Below are positions 1 through 7,066 of a stretch of DNA of 7,066 bases, in pieces. The stretch's first letter is position 1; each line of letters starts with the position of its first letter. This stretch comes from an uncultured bacterium (lineage in GTDB: Bacteria; Actinomycetota; Coriobacteriia; Coriobacteriales; Eggerthellaceae), in assembly GCA_947649215.1 (NCBI GenBank), contig CANSQW010000066.1, positions 1 through 7,066 on the forward strand. The letters are read 5' to 3'. The position numbers and the translations under genes were made by a program. The notes beneath the pieces are model-generated. The model searched no databases. It saw only the letters and a program-made list of their open reading frames with translations, and was not told the DNA's origin.

Positions 1-956
1 GCGACTCCCAGGTCGCTCATGCGCAGGAACTTGTTGTCGTCCTTTACCAGGAAGGGCGCCTCGGTGTGTGCGCGAATGAACTCGGTGTCCTGCCAGCCTT
101 GGGCGAGGATCTCGCTCAGGGCGCCGAAGACGAGCGCGCCGTCGGTGGCGGGGTGTACGGGGACGAACCAGTCGGACTTCGCCACGTTGGTGTTGTACTG
201 GATGTCGATGGTGGTGAGCTTTGCGCCCGCATCCTTCGCGTCCAGGTACATGTGCATCATGCGCTTGCAGGAAACGGTCGGGTTGCAGCCCCAGATGACG
301 ATGTTCTTCGCCTTGTTCCATTCGGCGGGGGAGGTGAAGGCGGCGCCGGGGCCGAACATCTTCACCATGGCCGACTGGAAGGCGATGTCGCGGTCGGGCA
401 GGACGCTGCAGGCGCCCATGACCGTCTGGAGGTGCTGCATGACCGACCCGTCGGCGGTGCCGCCGCCAAGGACGGCCGTGTTGCCGCTGCCGAGGAAGAA
501 GGCGATGGACTCGGGGCCGAACTCCTCGGTGTAGCCCTTCCACTTGTCGGTGATCTCCTTGATGGCCTCATCCCAGCTGATGCGCTCGAACTTGCCCTCG
601 CCGCGCTCGCCGATGCGGCGCATGGGGTACTGGAGCCGTTGGGAGCTGTAGACGCGTGCGGGATGCGAGAGGCCCTTGGGGCAGATATGCTCGTAGAAGG
701 GCTCATCGGGGATCGATCCGGCGGTCGTGCGCACGATCTGGCCGTCGCGAACATGCACATCCAGGTAGCAGCCCTGGATGCACTGGGAACGGCAGGCGCC
801 GGAGTAGATGGTGGTCTCAGGCGCAGCGTCGCCGGTCTTGGCGAGGTTCGAGGCCTGCGGGGTGCATCCGGCCAGGGCGCCGGCGGCGCCGAGGGCGGCC
901 GCGCCCTTGATGAAGTTTCTTCGGGTGAAGCGATGCGGAGTCGTTTGCTCGGTCAT
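1..956 (-). CDS. DmsA-like molybdopterin oxidoreductase catalytic subunit, N-terminal part (runs off left edge)
   Basis: This is the first 318 codons of a Mo/W-bisMGD enzyme of the DMSO reductase family; the rest lies beyond base 1. ATG at 956 follows AAAGGAG by 5 nt. Residues 11-17 (TRRNFIK) are a twin-arginine motif, followed by an Ala/Gly/Leu hydrophobic stretch (18-30) and a lipobox-like LAGC ending at Cys31, so export by Tat and perhaps lipidation are predicted. Cys55, Cys59, Cys63 and Cys92 (C-x3-C-x3-C-x28-C) should bind one [4Fe-4S] cluster, with Lys94 after the last Cys as the usual electron-relay residue. The spacing is DmsA-like. Residues 218-226 (NIVIWGCNP) and 266-274 (PVHPATDGA) match conserved cofactor-binding stretches. 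At the place where E. coli DmsA has its Mo-ligand serine, this protein reads DRDIA (188-192), with no obvious Ser or Cys. It is last in the operon, 39 bp after the TorD chaperone gene. Family is sure; substrate is unknown (sulfoxide, N-oxide, catechol dehydroxylation and others are possible). Confidence 0.95.
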   Translation of the reverse strand, partial: MTEQTTPHRFTRRNFIKGAAALGAAGALAGCTPQASNLAKTGDAAPETTIYSGACRSQCIQGCYLDVHVRDGQIVRTTAGSIPDEPFYEHICPKGLSHPARVYSSQRLQYPMRRIGERGEGKFERISWDEAIKEITDKWKGYTEEFGPESIAFFLGSGNTAVLGGGTADGSVMQHLQTVMGACSVLPDRDIAFQSAMVKMFGPGAAFTSPAEWNKAKNIVIWGCNPTVSCKRMMHMYLDAKDAGAKLTTIDIQYNTNVAKSDWFVPVHPATDGALVFGALSEILAQGWQDTEFIRAHTEAPFLVKDDNKFLRMSDLGV

Positions 957-995: not shown

Positions 996-1751
996 TTACG
1001 TCAGCGGGAGGTTTGCGTCGGGCGCGGCGCGCGTCCGGTGGTCGTCCAGCAGCCGGGCCACGTGGGCGCCCCAGGCGCTCAGGCCGGCGCGATAGCGGAC
1101 GGCGTCCTCGTCTACCAGACCATCGGCAGCTAGGGAAGATGCCTTCGACGCGGTGGCGCAGAGGAAGTCGGGGAGCCATTTCAGCAGGTGCTCTTCAAGG
1201 AAGAACTGCTCACGGCGTCGCCAGTCTGCGGCAGCGTCGAGGTTGCCCTCTGACAGGGCGGCTGCCTCGCTTCCCAGCAGGAAGGAGAGGAACGCCGCCT
1301 CGCTCCAGATGCTGTCGCAGGGCTCGGTGCGCGCGTCTGCGGGCATGACGCCGGCTTTGCGCATCTGCGCTTCCACGTCGAGGGTCAGCGGGGAGCGGAA
1401 CAGGCCCGGCTCTCCCCTGTGCCCGCCTGCGACAAAGCGGAAGGCAGACTCGTAGGGAAACGCCGCCACCCCGTCGGCTTGGCGCACGTGCAGCAGGGAG
1501 TGGACGCGGCGCAGGCTGGCCGCAAGCGTCGTGGGGCTGTGGCCAGCGAGGGCCACCCAGCTGGTGCAGGCCGCGTCCGCCTTGACGTCATCGACTTGGG
1601 CGTCGGACAGGCAGGCGCGTGCATCTGCCACGAGCGAGCCATCGCAGAGCGCGGCTGCGAGCGCCTCGTCGGGAAAGGCCGTGACCGCGCAGAGCAGCTC
1701 GCAGGCGTCTGCGAGCCCGATGATGCGGCGAAGCTCCCTCTCCTCGATCAT
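996..1751 (-). CDS. TorD/DmsD-family molybdoenzyme maturation chaperone
   Basis: This encodes a 251-residue soluble, mostly helical cytoplasmic protein. Family marks include FPYESAF (98-104), the acidic helix EPCDSIWSEAAFLSFL (143-158), which occupies the place of the family's E-x-x-F-x-x-L core, and FLEEHLLKWLPDF (184-196), equivalent to the conserved H-L-x-x-W-x-P-x-F motif. TorD-family proteins bind the Tat signal peptide and apoprotein of their partner molybdoenzyme and hold it until the cofactor is inserted. The direct neighbour downstream is a Tat-dependent catalytic subunit, so it is the presumed client. ATG at 1751 is chosen because GGAGG lies 5 nt upstream. The gene sits 42 bp after the iron-sulfur subunit. 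The C-terminal tail (about 235-251) is basic and looks unstructured. The family call is firm although overall sequence conservation in this family is low. Confidence 0.9.
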   Translation of the reverse strand: MIEERELRRIIGLADACELLCAVTAFPDEALAAALCDGSLVADARACLSDAQVDDVKADAACTSWVALAGHSPTTLAASLRRVHSLLHVRQADGVAAFPYESAFRFVAGGHRGEPGLFRSPLTLDVEAQMRKAGVMPADARTEPCDSIWSEAAFLSFLLGSEAAALSEGNLDAAADWRRREQFFLEEHLLKWLPDFLCATASKASSLAADGLVDEDAVRYRAGLSAWGAHVARLLDDHRTRAAPDANLPLT

Positions 1752-1793: not shown

Positions 1794-2459
1794 TTACAGC
1801 AGGTAGTACACGCTGGGGTCGGTGCCGGCGCCCTCGCGCAGCTTGTGGTAGTCGCGGCCCTCGATGGCCTGAGAGACGGCGGACTCGGGATCGTCCAGAT
1901 CACCCCAGAAGCGGGCGCGCCCCATGCACAGCTGCATGCAGGCGGGCACCTCACCGCGGTCGATGAGGTTCTTGCAGAAGGTGCACTTCTCCACGGTGCC
2001 CGCCTCGTGGGCGGGGGCGTCGTATTCGCCTACCGTCACGTCGAGGTAGTACTCGGGCTCATCCTCGTTCATGGATCGCACGCCGTCGTAGGGGCAGGCC
2101 ATGATGCAGGCGGCACAGCCGATGCACAGCTCGTTGTCCACCCAGACGATGCCGTCATCACGCTTCTGCGTGGCGCCGGTAGGGCACACGCGCAGGCAGC
2201 TCGGGTTCTCGCAGTGCTGGCACTGCACCGGCAGGAACTCGAGCACGCAGTTGGGGAAGGAGCCGCCGGCGTTGTCGTTGGCGACGGCGCCGCGCACCAC
2301 GGCGGTGCCGAAGTCGGCGTCCCAGTCACGGTCGGTCTTGGTGTATACCACGTTGTAGACGATGTCCTTGGGCAGGTTGTTGGCGATCTTGCAGGCGGTC
2401 GCGCAGGCCTGGCAGCCCACGCAGCGCTTCAGGTCGATGGCCATTCCATAGCGGGTCAT
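1794..2459 (-). CDS. DmsB-like iron-sulfur electron-transfer subunit with four [4Fe-4S] sites
   Basis: This 221-residue protein transfers electrons from the membrane anchor to the catalytic subunit. Sixteen cysteines fall in four ferredoxin-type groups: C13, C16, C19, C23 (CVGCQACATAC); C80, C83, C88, C92 (CQHCENPSCLRVCP); C112, C115, C118, C122 (CIGCAACIMACP); and C159, C162, C174, C178. This is the DmsB/NrfC/PhsB pattern with cluster ligands paired across groups. There is no signal peptide, as expected for a subunit carried out by the Tat system together with its catalytic partner. ATG at 2459 follows AAGGAGGA with about 10 nt spacing. Length is close to the usual size for the family (about 200 residues). 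It lies 44 bp downstream of the anchor gene. Function is secure at family level; the symbol dmsB is withheld because the substrate of the complex is not known. Confidence 0.96.
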   Translation of the reverse strand: MTRYGMAIDLKRCVGCQACATACKIANNLPKDIVYNVVYTKTDRDWDADFGTAVVRGAVANDNAGGSFPNCVLEFLPVQCQHCENPSCLRVCPTGATQKRDDGIVWVDNELCIGCAACIMACPYDGVRSMNEDEPEYYLDVTVGEYDAPAHEAGTVEKCTFCKNLIDRGEVPACMQLCMGRARFWGDLDDPESAVSQAIEGRDYHKLREGAGTDPSVYYLL

Positions 2460-2503: not shown

Positions 2504-3256
2504 CTAGATAATGCTGGCAGCGTAGAAGGCCCAGCGGGCGAGGCAGGTGCCGATGAGCGCGCAGGCGATGAGGGCGCCCGCCTGCCAGGCGGCCGGCTTC
2601 TTGGCGGCGACGACCGCCACGGCGGCACCGGCGAGGGTCACCGCGAGGCCGGCGTAGAGCAGCGCGGCGCCCTGGCCGACGGAGCCGAAGTGCAGGCCCG
2701 TGAGCAGCATGGTCGCGGCGCTCACGGCCAGCACGACGGCGGTGGCCAGCGTGAAGGGGCGCTTCTCAAGCGCGTCCTTGGACAGGACGGCCCAGAGCGC
2801 CAGGCCCATGGCGATGTCGCCTGCCACGAACAGCGGCACGGTGGTCCAGTTGGCCCACGCGGCGGTGCCGACGTTGGTCACGTAGGCGAAGCCCATGACG
2901 AACGCCATGATCAGGCTGACTCCAGCCGCGATCCAGGTGAGGGCCCGCGGCGCCTCGCCCTTGCGCCAGCTCATGACGAGCAGCGCGAGCAGCAGCACGC
3001 CCAGCACGATGCCGCAGTAGGCCTCCTGGGCGATGCCGGCTGCGGGGTTGCGCAGCGCCAGCAGGAACAGCGCGGGCTTCTTCAGGTGGAAGAGCACGCC
3101 GAGCATGCCGACGCCCAGCAGCACGAGGGCCGTGAGCGGAGCGAGCCAGGGGCGCTCCGGCTTCTCGGCGGGCGGAAAGGCCGCCATGGCCATGACGAGG
3201 CCGGCGGAAAGGCCGCCGAGCGTCGTGAAGATAAAGAGCGGGAATTCGGAAATCAT
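2504..3256 (-). CDS. DmsC-like membrane anchor subunit of a DMSO reductase-type complex
   Basis: This 250-residue integral membrane protein has about eight hydrophobic segments. It begins MISEFPLFIFTTLGGLSAG, the typical start of DmsC proteins. DmsC oxidises menaquinol and passes electrons to the iron-sulfur subunit while anchoring the complex. The stretch LFHLKKPALFLLALRNP (55-71), with His57, matches the family's HL-x-x-P region linked to quinol handling in E. coli DmsC, and Glu78 in AQEAY lies where the family has a conserved acidic residue. An in-frame ATG at 3340 would add 28 residues, but they are polar and overlap the previous gene; ATG at 3256, preceded by AAAGGATGG 6 nt upstream, starts the conserved protein and is preferred. 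It lies between the haem membrane protein and the iron-sulfur subunit genes, in a five-gene run with gaps near 40 bp. Confidence 0.9.
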   Translation of the reverse strand: MISEFPLFIFTTLGGLSAGLVMAMAAFPPAEKPERPWLAPLTALVLLGVGMLGVLFHLKKPALFLLALRNPAAGIAQEAYCGIVLGVLLLALLVMSWRKGEAPRALTWIAAGVSLIMAFVMGFAYVTNVGTAAWANWTTVPLFVAGDIAMGLALWAVLSKDALEKRPFTLATAVVLAVSAATMLLTGLHFGSVGQGAALLYAGLAVTLAGAAVAVVAAKKPAAWQAGALIACALIGTCLARWAFYAASII

Positions 3257-3299: not shown

Positions 3300-4034
3300 T
3301 CAGGCAGCCCGCAGCTCGGAGTCGTCTGACGCGGGTCCATCGCCCCCTGTCCTCGCGGCGTCGTCCGCTCGTCGGTCGGCTAGCGCCCGCGCTCCCCGTG
3401 CGACGAGGTAGGCGAGCAGCACGGCGGCGTAGGCCAGCGCTCCCTCCCCGGCTGCGATGCCCCCGCTCAGCGCCGAGGGTAGGAGCATGAGCAGCGCGTG
3501 GGCGCAGGCCAGCACGAAGAACGCGTAGGCCAGCCTCTGCACGCGCTTCCAGCGCGTCGGCCCCATGGCCCGCTTGACGCGCTGGGCCGAGGTGATGCCC
3601 AGGACGGCGAGCAGCGCCGTCAGCACGAGGGCGACTAAGAGCCCCGCAGCCACGGTCGGGCTCGCCAGGGCGCCGGTGATGGCGCGGGGGACGTAGGAGG
3701 CGGCGTAGCCGATGACGTGGCCCGCGCACAGGAGGCAAGCCACGATGGACACCTCGGCGCGGATGGGGCGCAGCCAGCGGCTGAGCCGCGCGCCCGGCGG
3801 CAGCGCGCCGATGAGCATGACGACGGCGAACAGCGCCATGGCCACGTAGCAGCGCTTGACGAGCACGAGCAGGGCGAGGTCGATCGGCTTGGGCAGCCCG
3901 AGCGACGCGGAGGCGAGCTGTGCCACGACGGCGGCGACGGCCAGCGCGTAGAAGGCGACGGGCCAGCGCCTGATCGGCTCGCGAAGGGCGACGCAGGCGG
4001 CGAAGGCCAGGACAAGCGTCAGGATGAACGGCAT
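3300..4034 (-). CDS. Ferric-reductase-like transmembrane b-haem protein (MsrQ/YedZ-like fold)
   Basis: This 244-residue protein has about seven hydrophobic segments (near 3-17, 24-45, 61-80, 91-115, 125-148, 166-186, 193-210) and a polar charged C-terminal tail. It fits the ferric reductase-like transmembrane domain family, which includes MsrQ. Likely haem ligands are His106 in CAGHVIGY and His179 in the FFVLACAHALLML segment; the RWKRVQRLAY-type basic/aromatic run before the second (161-170) is also typical. Such proteins move electrons across or within the membrane through b-type haems. As first gene of the operon it may feed or sense the reductase complex, which is not part of the classical DmsABC set. 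ATG at 4034 follows GGAGGT by 8 nt. The gene ends 43 bp before the anchor gene. Family is fairly sure; its exact partner is inference. Confidence 0.85.
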   Translation of the reverse strand: MPFILTLVLAFAACVALREPIRRWPVAFYALAVAAVVAQLASASLGLPKPIDLALLVLVKRCYVAMALFAVVMLIGALPPGARLSRWLRPIRAEVSIVACLLCAGHVIGYAASYVPRAITGALASPTVAAGLLVALVLTALLAVLGITSAQRVKRAMGPTRWKRVQRLAYAFFVLACAHALLMLLPSALSGGIAAGEGALAYAAVLLAYLVARGARALADRRADDAARTGGDGPASDDSELRAA

Positions 4035-4094: not shown

Positions 4095-4118
4095 CTCTTC
4101 GTTTCCCCTGGAGAAGAG
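4095..4118 (-). promoter_or_regulatory. Leader hairpin in the reductase operon 5' UTR
   Basis: CTCTTC (4118-4113) and GAAGAG (4100-4095) form a perfect 6-bp stem around a 12-nt loop in the predicted leader, just before the SD of the mini-ORF. It has only moderate stability. It may be structural or incidental. Confidence 0.25.
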
Positions 4119-4135
4119 GTTACGGGCCGGTAACG

Positions 4136-4141
4136 GTAATA
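4136..4141 (-). promoter_or_regulatory. Candidate -10 element of the reductase operon
   Basis: TATTAC matches TATAAT at four of six positions. The expected -35 position, about 16-17 nt upstream, has no consensus hexamer and instead overlaps the last half-site of the four-part operator. That is the usual layout for promoters activated by OmpR/PhoB-class regulators. No start site is known. Confidence 0.35.
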
Positions 4142-4155
4142 GCCATGCACGGACG

Positions 4156-4194
4156 ATAAGGCTTTGCTAATCATTTGCTTAAGGCGCGGTTAAC
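4156..4194 (-). promoter_or_regulatory. Four-half-site direct-repeat operator upstream of the reductase operon
   Basis: Read on the minus strand, the half-sites are GTTAAC, CTTAAG, ATTAG and CTTAT. Their TTA cores lie at plus-strand positions 4191-4193, 4180-4182, 4168-4170 and 4157-4159, giving steps of 11, 12 and 11 bp. About one helical turn between direct repeats is the binding mode of OmpR/PhoB-class regulators, and the neighbouring regulator gene encodes one. The same spacing recurs at 6768-6806. The region is AT-rich in otherwise GC-rich DNA. Binding is inferred. Confidence 0.65.
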
Positions 4195-4230
4195 GCCCAG
4201 GTCAGGCCGGTGGGTTCGACCGCGTGTGCC

Positions 4231-4250
4231 CGCCGGGCCCGCATCCGGCG
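4231..4250 (-). terminator. Candidate terminator hairpin after the response regulator gene
   Basis: CGCCGG and CCGGCG form a perfect 6-bp GC stem with an 8-nt loop, 16 nt past the regulator stop codon. No U-tract follows, which weakens a Rho-independent call, although hairpin terminators without U-runs are reported for high-GC actinobacteria. It sits where the signalling operon should end. Confidence 0.3.
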
Positions 4251-4266
4251 TCCGCCTCGACGGCCC

Positions 4267-4974
4267 CTACAGCGCGTCGGTCATCTTGTAGCCCACGCGC
4301 GGGACGGTGAGCAGGTACTTCGGCTCGCTCGGGTTCTCCTCGATCTTCTCGCGGATCTTGCGCACGAATACGGTGATGGAGTTCGACTTGGCGTCCGCCT
4401 CGCCGTCACCCCAGATGTACTCCTGGATCTGCCCGCGGGTGAAGACCTTGCCCGGATGGGTGGCCAGAAAGGCGACGATCTCGAACTCCTTGGCCGTGAG
4501 GTTGGCGGGCTTGCCCTTGACGAGCACCTGGTAGGCGTCGAAGCGGATCTCCAAATCGCCGATGGAGGTCGTGCCCTCGCGCACGGTGCAGCGCGAGAAC
4601 TCGATGGCGTCGCGGCGCCGGCGCAGGTGGGCCTCGATGCGCAGGAGCAGCTCGGCGATGTCGAAGGGCTTGGTCACGTAGTCGTCGCCACCAGCGCGAA
4701 ACCCGATGGACTTGTCCACGATGTCGCTCTTCGCCGACAGGAAGATGATGGGCATCTCGCGCTCGCGGGCACGGATGCGCCCGCACAGGTCGAACCCGTT
4801 CATCCCCGGCAGCATGATGTCGAGCAGCAGCAGATCGGGCTTCTCCGCCTCGAGCAGGGCGAGCCCCTCCTCGGCATCACGCGCGCCGCAGTAGGCGTAG
4901 CCCTCATGCTCAAGCGCCTTGCGGATGGCGCCGTGGATGCTCTCCTCGTCGTCGATGAGCATGACCTTGAACAT
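4267..4974 (-). CDS. OmpR/PhoB-class response regulator
   Basis: This 235-residue DNA-binding regulator has an N-terminal receiver domain (about 1-118) with acidic residues Asp8/Asp9, phospho-acceptor Asp52 in LLLLDIMLPG, Ser80 in FLSAKSD and Lys102 in VTKPF. A C-terminal winged helix (about 130-232) follows, with the recognition-helix region at AKSNSITVFVRKIREKI and the closing wing TVPRVGYKM. An upstream in-frame ATG at 5022 would add 16 residues encoded inside the kinase gene; the ATG at 4974 starts the normal FKVMLIDDE receiver strand and has AGGAGGT about 7-8 nt upstream, so it is preferred. Only 1 nt separates the kinase stop from this start, indicating translational coupling. Its probable targets are the two matching operators at 4156-4194 and 6768-6806. 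Family and pairing with the kinase are firm; the targets are inferred. Confidence 0.96.
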   Translation of the reverse strand: MFKVMLIDDEESIHGAIRKALEHEGYAYCGARDAEEGLALLEAEKPDLLLLDIMLPGMNGFDLCGRIRAREREMPIIFLSAKSDIVDKSIGFRAGGDDYVTKPFDIAELLLRIEAHLRRRRDAIEFSRCTVREGTTSIGDLEIRFDAYQVLVKGKPANLTAKEFEIVAFLATHPGKVFTRGQIQEYIWGDGEADAKSNSITVFVRKIREKIEENPSEPKYLLTVPRVGYKMTDAL

Positions 4975-4975
4975 G

Positions 4976-6676
4976 TTATTCCACCTCCTGGCCGGGGCCG
5001 CTTTCCCCGTCGTCCTCGTCAAGCGCCACCGCCAGGCATGCCGGCACGCGCAGCGTGAACGTGCTGCCGACGCCCGGGTGGCTTGAGACCTCCACCGTGA
5101 AGCCCTGGAGCAGGGCGTACTCCATCACGAGCGCGAGCCCGAGCCCGCTGCCCTTGAACCGCCGCGTGGAGGCGGAGTCCACCTGGACGAAGCGGTCGAA
5201 GATGCGCGCCTGATCCTCCGGCGCGATGCCGATGCCCGTGTCCTCCACCTGGACGAGCACGTCTCCCGTCTCCGCCTCTACCGAGGCGCTCATGCGCACG
5301 CTGCCGCCGTCGGGGGTGAACTTGATGGCGTTGGTGACCAGGTTCTCAAGCGCACGGTGCGTCTTGTCGTAGTCGCCGTAGACGAGCGGCACGTCGGCGG
5401 CCACCTGTGCGCTGAACACGAGGCGCGCGTTCTCTGCCAGCGGCCAGGCGTCCTCCTGCGCGGCTGCCACCAGGTCCCCCAGGTCGATGGGCTCGCAGGC
5501 CAGCGACTCGCGTCCGGCGTCGAGCCGCGCGATGTCGAGCAGGTTGTTCACCATGTCGAGCAGCACGATGCTGCTCTTGCGCACCTCGTCCCACGCGTGC
5601 CAGCCCTCCGACTCCTCCTCGCAGGCGGCGAGCGAGAGGTGCGTGGTGGTCAGGATGGCGGTGAGCGGGGTGCGCAGCTCGTGGCTCACCATGGAGAGCA
5701 TGTCGGTCTTGAACTGCGACTCGTCGGCCAGCCGCTGGCCGAGCGCCTCCAGCTGGTCACGCTGCCGCTCGAGCGCCAGGTTCACCTGCTGGAGGTCGTG
5801 CGTGCGGTCGGCCACCTTCTCCTCCAGGTCGGCGTACAGGACGGAGAGCTCGTGCGCCATGGCGTTGAACTGGCTGATGAGCTGGGCCATCTCCCGCGCG
5901 CGGGACGTGGCGGCCACCTGGCGCGGGTACCCGCCGGCCTCCACGCTCGAGGCCGTCTTGATGAGGCCCACCGGCCGCAGCACGAAGCGCTCCGTCACCA
6001 CGTAGACCACCACGCCGATGGCCAGGATGAGGAAGGCGAAGAACGCCAGGTCGCGCATGACGTTGTTGATCAGCGACGAGGTGGCCCGCTCGGCCGGGAT
6101 GCTGATGGAGATGGCGCCGCCCACCGAGCCGACCGTCCAGCCCTCCTTGTCGTGGCCGGTGATGTCGATCTCGCCCACGGGCTCGCCATGGCACTCCAGG
6201 CAGCTCTCGTCCACCTCGAGCGCGCGGACGTAGCGGAACTGGGGAACGTCCCCGTCTGTGACGGTGTCGTAGTACTCGGTGACCGCGCGGTCCTCGTGGA
6301 AGGCGTTGAGCGCCTCGGTCTCGAACTCGTCGGGGCGGTCGTGGGCGCGCCGCGGGTTGAGGTTGGTGTAGCGGATGGAGTAGTCGTTGTTCGCGGAGAA
6401 GATGGCCCCGATGCTCTTGCCGACGATGGCGCAGTGGAGGCCCTTGAACTCGTAGGTGCCGTCGGAGGTGTAGTTGATGGTGTCCTGGGAGGTCTCCATG
6501 AACTTCCACACGGCGTCCATCTCGCGTGCGAAGGTGCGGGCCTCCTCCACCATGGACGCCTCGGTGTCGCGCCGCTGGGTCTCCACGTCGAAGACGACGA
6601 AGACCGCCATGGCCGCAAGCGACACGATGGAGAGCGCGAGGAAGTAGATGGCGCGAAGCCCCAGCTTGCCCCTCAC
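4976..6676 (-). CDS. Membrane sensor histidine kinase with DUF3365 (Tll0287-like) c-haem sensor domain
   Basis: This 566-residue kinase has a first membrane helix at about 9-29 and an extracytoplasmic DUF3365-type sensor at about 32-205. Sensor marks are LHCAIVGKSIG (80-90), IRYTNLNPRR (101-110) and a CLECH c-haem site (159-163) followed by GEPVGEIDITGH. A second helix (about 208-228) leads to a HAMP domain (about 229-282), then a coiled segment (about 283-320) and HisKA with His332 in SHELRTP. The ATPase domain carries the N box with Asn445/Asn449, DTGIGI (479-484) and GSGLGL (509-514). The start is GTG at 6676: it has a strong GGAGGAGGT 5 nt upstream, while the next Met codons lie inside the first helix. 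The c-haem site implies a redox state or small haem ligand as signal, and requires export and cytochrome c maturation. It heads a two-gene operon with the regulator and likely controls the reductase genes downstream. Confidence 0.96.
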   Translation of the reverse strand: MRGKLGLRAIYFLALSIVSLAAMAVFVVFDVETQRRDTEASMVEEARTFAREMDAVWKFMETSQDTINYTSDGTYEFKGLHCAIVGKSIGAIFSANNDYSIRYTNLNPRRAHDRPDEFETEALNAFHEDRAVTEYYDTVTDGDVPQFRYVRALEVDESCLECHGEPVGEIDITGHDKEGWTVGSVGGAISISIPAERATSSLINNVMRDLAFFAFLILAIGVVVYVVTERFVLRPVGLIKTASSVEAGGYPRQVAATSRAREMAQLISQFNAMAHELSVLYADLEEKVADRTHDLQQVNLALERQRDQLEALGQRLADESQFKTDMLSMVSHELRTPLTAILTTTHLSLAACEEESEGWHAWDEVRKSSIVLLDMVNNLLDIARLDAGRESLACEPIDLGDLVAAAQEDAWPLAENARLVFSAQVAADVPLVYGDYDKTHRALENLVTNAIKFTPDGGSVRMSASVEAETGDVLVQVEDTGIGIAPEDQARIFDRFVQVDSASTRRFKGSGLGLALVMEYALLQGFTVEVSSHPGVGSTFTLRVPACLAVALDEDDGESGPGQEVE

Positions 6677-6695
6677 CGCCGACCTCCTCCCCCGT
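6677..6695 (-). promoter_or_regulatory. Ribosome binding site supporting the GTG start of the kinase
   Basis: GGGGGAGGAGGT ends 5 nt before GTG at 6676. It is the strongest SD in the window and decides this non-ATG start. Confidence 0.7.
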
Positions 6696-6767
6696 AGGCC
6701 CGACCAGTTAGACCTAAGTCAAGGTACCAGTCTAGCGCACAGAGGGGGAGACGTTTTCGCGCGATGG

Positions 6768-6806
6768 CTAAGGTTTCACTAACTTTTGGATTAACAAACC
6801 ATTAAC
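6768..6806 (-). promoter_or_regulatory. Four-half-site direct-repeat operator upstream of the kinase/regulator operon
   Basis: Read on the minus strand the half-sites are GTTAAT, GTTAAT, GTTAGT and CTTAG. TTA cores lie at 6803-6805, 6792-6794, 6780-6782 and 6769-6771, with steps of 11, 12 and 11 bp. The first two half-sites are identical. The architecture equals that at 4156-4194, and the two 41-bp stretches agree at 25 positions by hand count, including TTAG at the third half-site and CCTTA at the fourth. It ends about 90 bp before the kinase start. The promoter itself is unclear: a TAGACT at 6734-6729 resembles a -10 but has no good -35. Autoregulation by the encoded regulator is inferred. 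Confidence 0.65.
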
Positions 6807-6838: not shown

Positions 6839-7066
6839 CTAGGCGCCGAAGTGGGAGCGATGAGGGCTCAGGGGACGGGCGTCGCCGTGGAGGCAGTGGG
6901 CGAGGAAGGTGATGCCGGCGAAGGCGAGCGCTATGCCGAGTCCCGTGTAGAAGAAGGCGATGAACCACGTCGGCACGAGCCCGAAGCTGCGCAGCGCGAT
7001 GCCGCCTCCCATCATGACGGCCATGATGAGGTAGCCCTTCGCATCGAAGAAGCGGTGGATGCCCTG
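6839..7066 (-). CDS. C-terminal end of an unrecognised membrane protein (runs off right edge)
   Basis: The last 75 codons and the TAG stop of a gene entering from the right edge are visible; the frame is open through 7066, so the N-terminus is missing. The visible part reads from QGIHRFFDAKGYLIMAV into two hydrophobic segments (one from YLIMAVMMGGG, one from WFIAFFYTGLGIALAFAGITFLAHCL) separated by a short RSFGLVP turn. It ends in a short polar tail (HGDARPLSPHRSHFGA). I do not recognise the family. It has no visible terminator and ends 32 bp before the kinase operator, so its relation to the signalling operon is unknown. A small two-helix or larger transporter-like protein are both possible. 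Confidence 0.75.
   Translation of the reverse strand, partial: QGIHRFFDAKGYLIMAVMMGGGIALRSFGLVPTWFIAFFYTGLGIALAFAGITFLAHCLHGDARPLSPHRSHFGA

Follow-up and report, generated by a model that had tools for sequence, protein, structure and literature searches.

The stretch of DNA considered here (the window) is the 7,066 nucleotides of contig CANSQW010000066.1 (assembly GCA_947649215.1), from an uncultured bacterium of the family Eggerthellaceae whose genome, G000, comprises 1,742,293 bases and is 56.55% complete. The described genes all lie on the minus strand and are, in the order of transcription, a sensor kinase, a response regulator and a reductase operon. Upstream of both the sensor-regulator operon and the reductase operon, four TTA half-sites are present as direct repeats in the same arrangement, and these two arrays, which are probably operators of the neighbouring regulator, are the subject of this report. 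The features are the following.

4157 to 4193, minus strand: proposed operator of the reductase operon, with TTA half-sites TTAACCGCGCC / TTAAGCAAATGA / TTAGCAAAGCC / TTATCGTCCGT at offsets 0, 11, 23 and 34; the last unit extends to 4149.
6769 to 6805, minus strand: proposed operator of the sensor-regulator operon, with TTA half-sites TTAATGGTTTG / TTAATCCAAAAG / TTAGTGAAACC / TTAGCCATCGC at offsets 0, 11, 23 and 34; the last unit extends to 6761.
4138 to 4148, minus strand: fifth slot GCATGGCTATT, degenerate, which includes the -35-like hexamer TGGCTA (4140-4145) and is equivalent to the slot TTATCGCAATA of other genera.
4117 to 4122, minus strand: predicted reductase -10 element TAACCT, 71 bp from the array start and 17 bp after the -35-like hexamer.
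6729 to 6734, minus strand: predicted sensor -10 element TAGACT, 71 bp from the array start, with the best -10 score between +45 and +95.
4267 to 4974, minus strand: OmpR/PhoB-type response regulator of 235 amino acids (Response_reg and Trans_reg_C), the proposed binder of the operators.
4976 to 6676, minus strand: sensor histidine kinase, with a Tll0287-like domain carrying CLECH (a CxxCH motif), HAMP (below cut-off), HisKA and HATPase_c in Pfam, and a match to PDB entry 5b82.
3300 to 4034, minus strand: ferric-reductase-like transmembrane protein (Ferric_reduct, PF01794), predicted to bind haem b; first gene of the reductase operon.
2504 to 3256, minus strand: membrane protein without a match in Pfam or NCBIfam, putatively DmsC-like by position and hydrophobicity.
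1794 to 2459, minus strand: iron-sulphur electron-transfer subunit, DmsB-like (Fer4 families; DsrO and DmsB models below cut-off).
996 to 1751, minus strand: TorD-like chaperone (Nitrate_red_del, PF02613).
3 to 956, minus strand: molybdopterin oxidoreductase with a twin-arginine signal (Molybdopterin and TAT_signal), truncated by the window end.

On the plus strand, TAA (the complement of TTA) starts at 4157, 4168, 4180 and 4191 and again at 6769, 6780, 6792 and 6803, which are exactly the eight positions given in an earlier reading made from the letters of the window (the sequence-only reading). The steps are 11, 12 and 11 bp in both arrays, and direct repeats spaced by about one helical turn are characteristic of OmpR/PhoB operators. 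When the two 41-bp stretches are compared, 25 positions are identical, the number that had been counted by hand; identity of at least 25 of 41 was reached by none of 2000 pairs of shuffled islands in a coarse search of every third placement. It could be argued that the arrays are chance runs of TTA in AT-rich promoter islands, since the window is very AT-rich at both places. The islands themselves are real: the GC fraction is 0.317 at the sensor site and 0.439 at the reductase site against 0.678 for the window, and 5 and 69, respectively, of 7025 windows of 41 nt are equally or more AT-rich. However, the exact 0/11/23/34 array arose in none of 20,000 dinucleotide shuffles of each intergenic region and of each 80-bp island, and four TTA with any steps of 10 to 12 arose in none of 20,000 shuffles per whole intergenic region and in one of 20,000 per island. 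With the array recurring between poorly conserved flanks in 29 of 31 orthologous loci from 11 genera, as described next, chance is refuted by conservation and can be given practically no credence.

Conservation was followed in 31 loci with an orthologous sensor, regulator and reductase operon, namely the window, 28 loci with a kinase scoring above 600 bits, and L172 and L179, which are cut or fragmentary; these represent 12 genera, as the genera are numbered by the tool. Using a search with fixed 0/11/23/34 spacing and a threshold of 11 of the 12 TTA letters, settings that lean towards the result, the array was found before the reductase operon in 29 of the 31 loci and in 11 of the 12 genera, with 11 or 12 of the 12 letters. 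The conservation upstream of orthologous operons on which the sequence-only reading had staked its proposal thus exists for the reductase operon. In the alignment of 37 cores, sensor promoters included, the agreement at 11 to 12 of 12 letters follows partly from the search threshold and the spacing holds by construction, so that the test lies in the existence of such cores. When one mismatch is tolerated, each of the four genomes of the window's genus contains the bare TTA pattern precisely twice, and all eight sites are at the locus, against a total of three for the reversed control. As for the letters, the full motif of the earlier reading has exactly two matches in the incomplete genome G000, both inside the window (reversed control, none); within the window's genus it fits six of the eight sites, and elsewhere none of the 29 aligned sites, whereas the 11-12-11 spacing is general.

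The reductase array persists despite changes in gene order: the membrane subunits come first in the window's genus (4/4) and the catalytic subunit comes first in the other loci whose operon sequence is covered. It also stays beside the reductase genes where the regulator is separated from it by genes for an AbiEii-type toxin (L158 and L165, the latter with an AbiEi antitoxin beside the toxin), a PIN-domain protein (L167) or an AAA/DUF4143 protein (L156); in L179, the gap between regulator and operator is about 5 kb. In an ungapped alignment of the 29 loci, the 56-bp array carries 1.18 bits of information on average and the -10 element 1.05, with 0.46 for the spacer, 0.35 for the downstream and 0.13 for the upstream sequence, every value being raised by close relatives among the loci. 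The array is also present in L010 (Eggerthellales UBA948), a locus outside the set from which the frame was built.

The sites fall into two layouts, which were assigned by eye. Class I (23 loci) has five slots with steps of 11-11-12-11 and a TTATCGCAATA-like last slot that starts with TTA in 16 of the 23, and class II (6 loci: the four genomes G000-G003 of the window's genus, L166 and L168) has steps of 11-12-11-11 and a ATATGGCTATT-like last slot. The core of two pairs at 0/11/23/34 is common to both. The last slot contains a -35-like hexamer in which T.G..A is invariant (29/29 loci), i.e. a weak -35, and a -10-like hexamer follows 17 bp later. Of 84 offsets examined in the 29 loci, the one lying 71 bp from the first slot has the highest mean -10 score (4.75 bits, with more than 2 bits in 28 of the 29), and no other offset exceeds 1.93; a hand-entered scoring matrix was used and the five-slot frame of L166 and L168 was moved by 11 bp to fit the promoter, both of which lean towards the result. 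Hence the reductase -10 lies 60 bp from the core in class I loci and 71 bp from it in class II loci. At the sensor promoters, the best hexamer lies 61 bp from the core in four loci and 70, 70, 71 and 72 bp from it in four others, a second hexamer tying in L148; in both kinds of promoter, the two distances thus differ by about one helical turn. In L010, TATAAT stands 26 bp after TTATCGC, which is 71 bp from its core when counted by eye.

The same geometry bears on the direction of control, which sequence cannot reveal. The bound operator might block the promoter until a signal arrives, and in favour of this a fifth TTA half-site overlaps the -35-like region at 16 of the 29 reductase sites. The invariant weak hexamer, however, is what is expected where a promoter needs help, and an upstream array whose two alternative distances differ by about one turn is the usual activation layout of the family. 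Repression is therefore considered improbable, and activation is preferred.

Specificity was assessed with a strict pattern, TTAA-N7-TTAA-N8-TTA-N8-TTA, in 138 genomes of the family. It yielded 26 sites in 22 genomes, 25 of which lie within 2.5 kb of the orthologous kinase and in the same orientation, and the reversed pattern yielded two; occurrence at random genome frequency, another outcome that would have spoken against the motif, is thus ruled out. A strict site is present in 22 of the 30 genomes with an orthologous sensor and in none of the 108 genomes in which no orthologous sensor was detected (Fisher p 3e-19). In 21 of these 22 genomes the strict site is at the locus, and in G098 it is elsewhere, with a degenerate one at the locus. 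That off-locus site (C8, L171) was considered separately: it lies in an AT-rich stretch by an open reading frame whose translation reads as metallo-beta-lactamase-like, its surroundings matched none of the reductase, kinase and regulator queries, and it was judged to be due to chance. When the strict scan was extended to the 395 genomes of the order, 32 sites were obtained, i.e. the 26 above and six outside the family, the latter in four of 257 genomes (one each in G339, G375 and G394, three in G359), with seven for the reversed pattern. The five-slot pattern with up to three mismatches gave 33 matches in 28 of the 138 genomes; these comprise 27 distinct operators at the locus, three shifted or reverse matches on the same sites and three off-locus matches. 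A regulon extending beyond the locus was also considered and was rejected, since the three off-locus matches do not exceed the 11 of the reversed control, so that no further member is supported.

The regulator has the architecture of the OmpR/PhoB family, a receiver domain (PF00072, 103 bits) followed by a winged helix (PF00486, 80.6 bits), and its top-scoring solved relatives are RegX3 and MtrA. The predicted recognition helix contains VFVRKIREKIE, unchanged in 29 of 31 orthologues; the exceptions, L166 and L168, have VMVRKIRKKIE, and their half-sites are among the most deviant. The arrays might nevertheless be bound by another regulator, global or a paralogue of the OmpR type, with the neighbouring sensor-regulator pair acting elsewhere. 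Half-sites of the TTAA kind are indeed known for other regulators, such as PhoP of Bacillus subtilis, and the predicted recognition helix of the paralogous regulators is almost identical (VFMRKIREKIE in six of nine, the rest similar). A global regulator should, however, have many sites, and the sites found are confined to the locus (25 of the 26 strict sites in the 138 genomes), with the strict pattern missing from all 108 family genomes without a detected orthologous sensor and off-locus five-slot matches below the level of the reversed control. Binding by a different regulator is accordingly regarded as unlikely, and the 4267-4974 regulator is retained as the candidate.

A copy of the array before the sensor gene is found in eight of 30 loci, four of four in the window's genus (in each genome with at most one mismatch) and four of five in a second genus. 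The sequence-only reading had proposed a pair of operators linking the sensor and reductase operons; the reductase site is general, whereas the sensor copy is restricted to two genera. Hence, action of the regulator on its own sensor-regulator operon is predicted for these two genera.

Taken together, the arrays are quite probably operators that the 4267-4974 regulator would bind as two tandem dimers, activating the reductase operon and, by the same prediction, the operon that encodes the sensor and the regulator itself. At the level of the aligned DNA, the existence of the array is established, as are the spacing, the conservation and the fixed distances to a -10-like element, and from the family of the regulator it is likely that this protein is the binder, that it binds as two head-to-tail dimers and that it activates. 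As the reductase array of relatives lies at either of two fixed distances from a predicted promoter, the partner protein of the sensor likely binds there. The kinase, which is predicted to bind haem c, would phosphorylate its OmpR/PhoB-type partner, the regulator would occupy the four half-sites as two tandem head-to-tail dimers, and the bound protein would recruit RNA polymerase to a promoter with a weak -35, switching on the molybdoenzyme operon.

Several observations weigh against this proposal. Co-occurrence with the locus cannot single out this regulator, because co-occurrence is expected for every cis element that belongs to the locus. The paralogous regulators have a nearly identical recognition helix, yet at the nine paralogous loci (L173-L178 and L180-L182), a scan for TTA with steps of 10-12 gave no comparable array, the reductase promoter being covered in three of the nine. 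In L160 and L170, two of the 31 loci, the operator is rearranged. The more distant relatives L012 (10/12 letters) and L014 (9/12) do not retain the array, and 22 of the 30 loci in which the region before the sensor gene is covered showed no array there at the threshold of 11 of 12 letters. A different hexamer outscores the expected -10 in L144, L145 and L146, and in L161 the best one is one base off. Lastly, the 31 loci are not 31 independent tests, because close relatives are included. As read from the sequence, L160 and L170 retain three tandem half-sites and the promoter-proximal part, with about 20 extra bp between them. One paralogous locus, L182, has a weak TTA array with steps of 10, 10 and 11.

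A separate observation, made by eye, concerns two of the paralogous loci. Upstream of the paralogous reductase operon of L173 and L176 stands TAATGGCTATC, with a -10-like hexamer 15 bp after it and without a TTA array. This arrangement is similar to that of the last slot and the promoter before the reductase operon in the window.

The kinase scores 110.5 bits with PF11845 and matches the solved structure of Tll0287 (PDB 5b82) with an E value of 6e-6. The CxxCH motif was present in all 40 kinases inspected, nine of them paralogues. The window's kinase thus has the Tll0287-like domain with CXXCH that marks sCache_heme sensors. In a 2026 preprint, sCache_heme domains fused to signalling modules are described as having the properties of nitric oxide sensors and not of oxygen sensors (PMC12889525). 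The kinase shares with these Tll0287/DUF3365 sensors the extracytoplasmic CXXCH domain, here carried on a histidine kinase. According to the same preprint, Actinomycetota is among the phyla in which the domains are rare or missing altogether (PMC12889525), whereas kinase matches at E 1e-120 or better are common here, in 50 of the 138 family genomes and with up to five per genome. The sensor is predicted to bind haem c, with nitric oxide or the redox state of its haem as the signal. The closest named relatives of the kinase are found in Enterorhabdus sp. P55 (93%) and Adlercreutzia faecimuris (87%).

The catalytic subunit is cut by the window end. When the full protein of a close relative was used, the top-scoring solved chains belonged to a DMSO (dimethyl sulphoxide) reductase family type II enzyme (4ydd and others), followed by ethylbenzene dehydrogenase; the chains of the 4ydd type are those of perchlorate reductase. 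At the other end of the window (6839-7066) is a short gene that encodes a predicted membrane protein; it lies on the same strand and ends just upstream of the sensor promoter. This protein has no match in Pfam, and relatives of it turned up in only three of the 40 loci L143-L182, namely L143-L145.

The predicted leader of the reductase mRNA was observed to start with a hairpin, GAAAAGCC / GGCTTTTC, in L150 (8987-9081, minus strand) and, at the corresponding position, in a further 15 class I loci; the alignment thus covers 16 of the 23 class I loci, those with visible hairpins, a choice that leans towards the result. The first hairpin has eight pairs, three of which show two-sided changes among the 16 sequences, and GGGG is present in its loop region in 12 of 16. 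A second hairpin follows, with a stem that varies between genera and CCCTCCC in its loop region in 14 of 16. These complementary loops may form a kissing-loop element. A search of Rfam gave no match at the gathering cut-offs for nine sources, and the leader alone gave six matches, to microRNA families and far below the cut-offs. The hairpins were not found in the window's genus. A wider picture can be drawn, in which gut Eggerthellaceae possess a self-contained haem-gated switch made of a periplasmic haem-c kinase sensing nitric oxide or redox state and a phase-locked 11-12-11 double-dimer operator shifted by one helical turn between genera, with a kissing-hairpin mRNA leader in about half of the genera as a second level at which the same molybdoenzyme would be controlled; as a whole it is offered as a tentative and rather doubtful scheme.

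In the metabolism of gut Eggerthellaceae, molybdenum-dependent reductases play a prominent part. A search of titles and abstracts, with subscription journals outside its range, showed none that deals with a two-component regulator of these bacteria together with its operator. The locus offers a concrete regulator, site and promoter for testing, and a reporter promoter with which the signals of the haem-Cache kinases of this group may be found.

Among known systems, the half-sites recognized by PhoP and WalR of B. subtilis are TTAACA-like or TGTWAH-like and follow one another at about 11 bp; PhoP promoters have four such units. The arrays have this type of half-site and spacing in common with them and differ in serving an unrelated regulon; a constant 12-bp middle step is not known from the PhoP/WalR operators. 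The PHO boxes of PhoB/PhoP-type regulators are described as pairs of 11-nt direct repeats bound head-to-tail, with both simple and complex operators in Streptomyces (PMC4415409). The 11-nt direct-repeat units and the OmpR/PhoB-type effector domain are shared with the present case. The half-sites here are of the TTAA type, one extra base separates the two pairs of units, and the sensor is a haem-Cache kinase rather than a phosphate sensor: its sensor domain is Tll0287-like, and PhoR models score 149.7 and 104.9 bits against cut-offs of 334.2 and 390. TorR binds several tor boxes before torCAD (PMC9239176), so that the type of two-component regulator, the multiple boxes and the respiratory molybdoenzyme operon are alike. 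The tor box is CTGTTCATAT (PMC9239176), unlike the half-sites here, and the sensor and regulator are not TorS and TorR by the NCBIfam cut-offs (TorS model 163.8 bits against 676.5, TorR model 119.5 against 275). The particular mark of the present operators is the one-base offset between their two half-site pairs.

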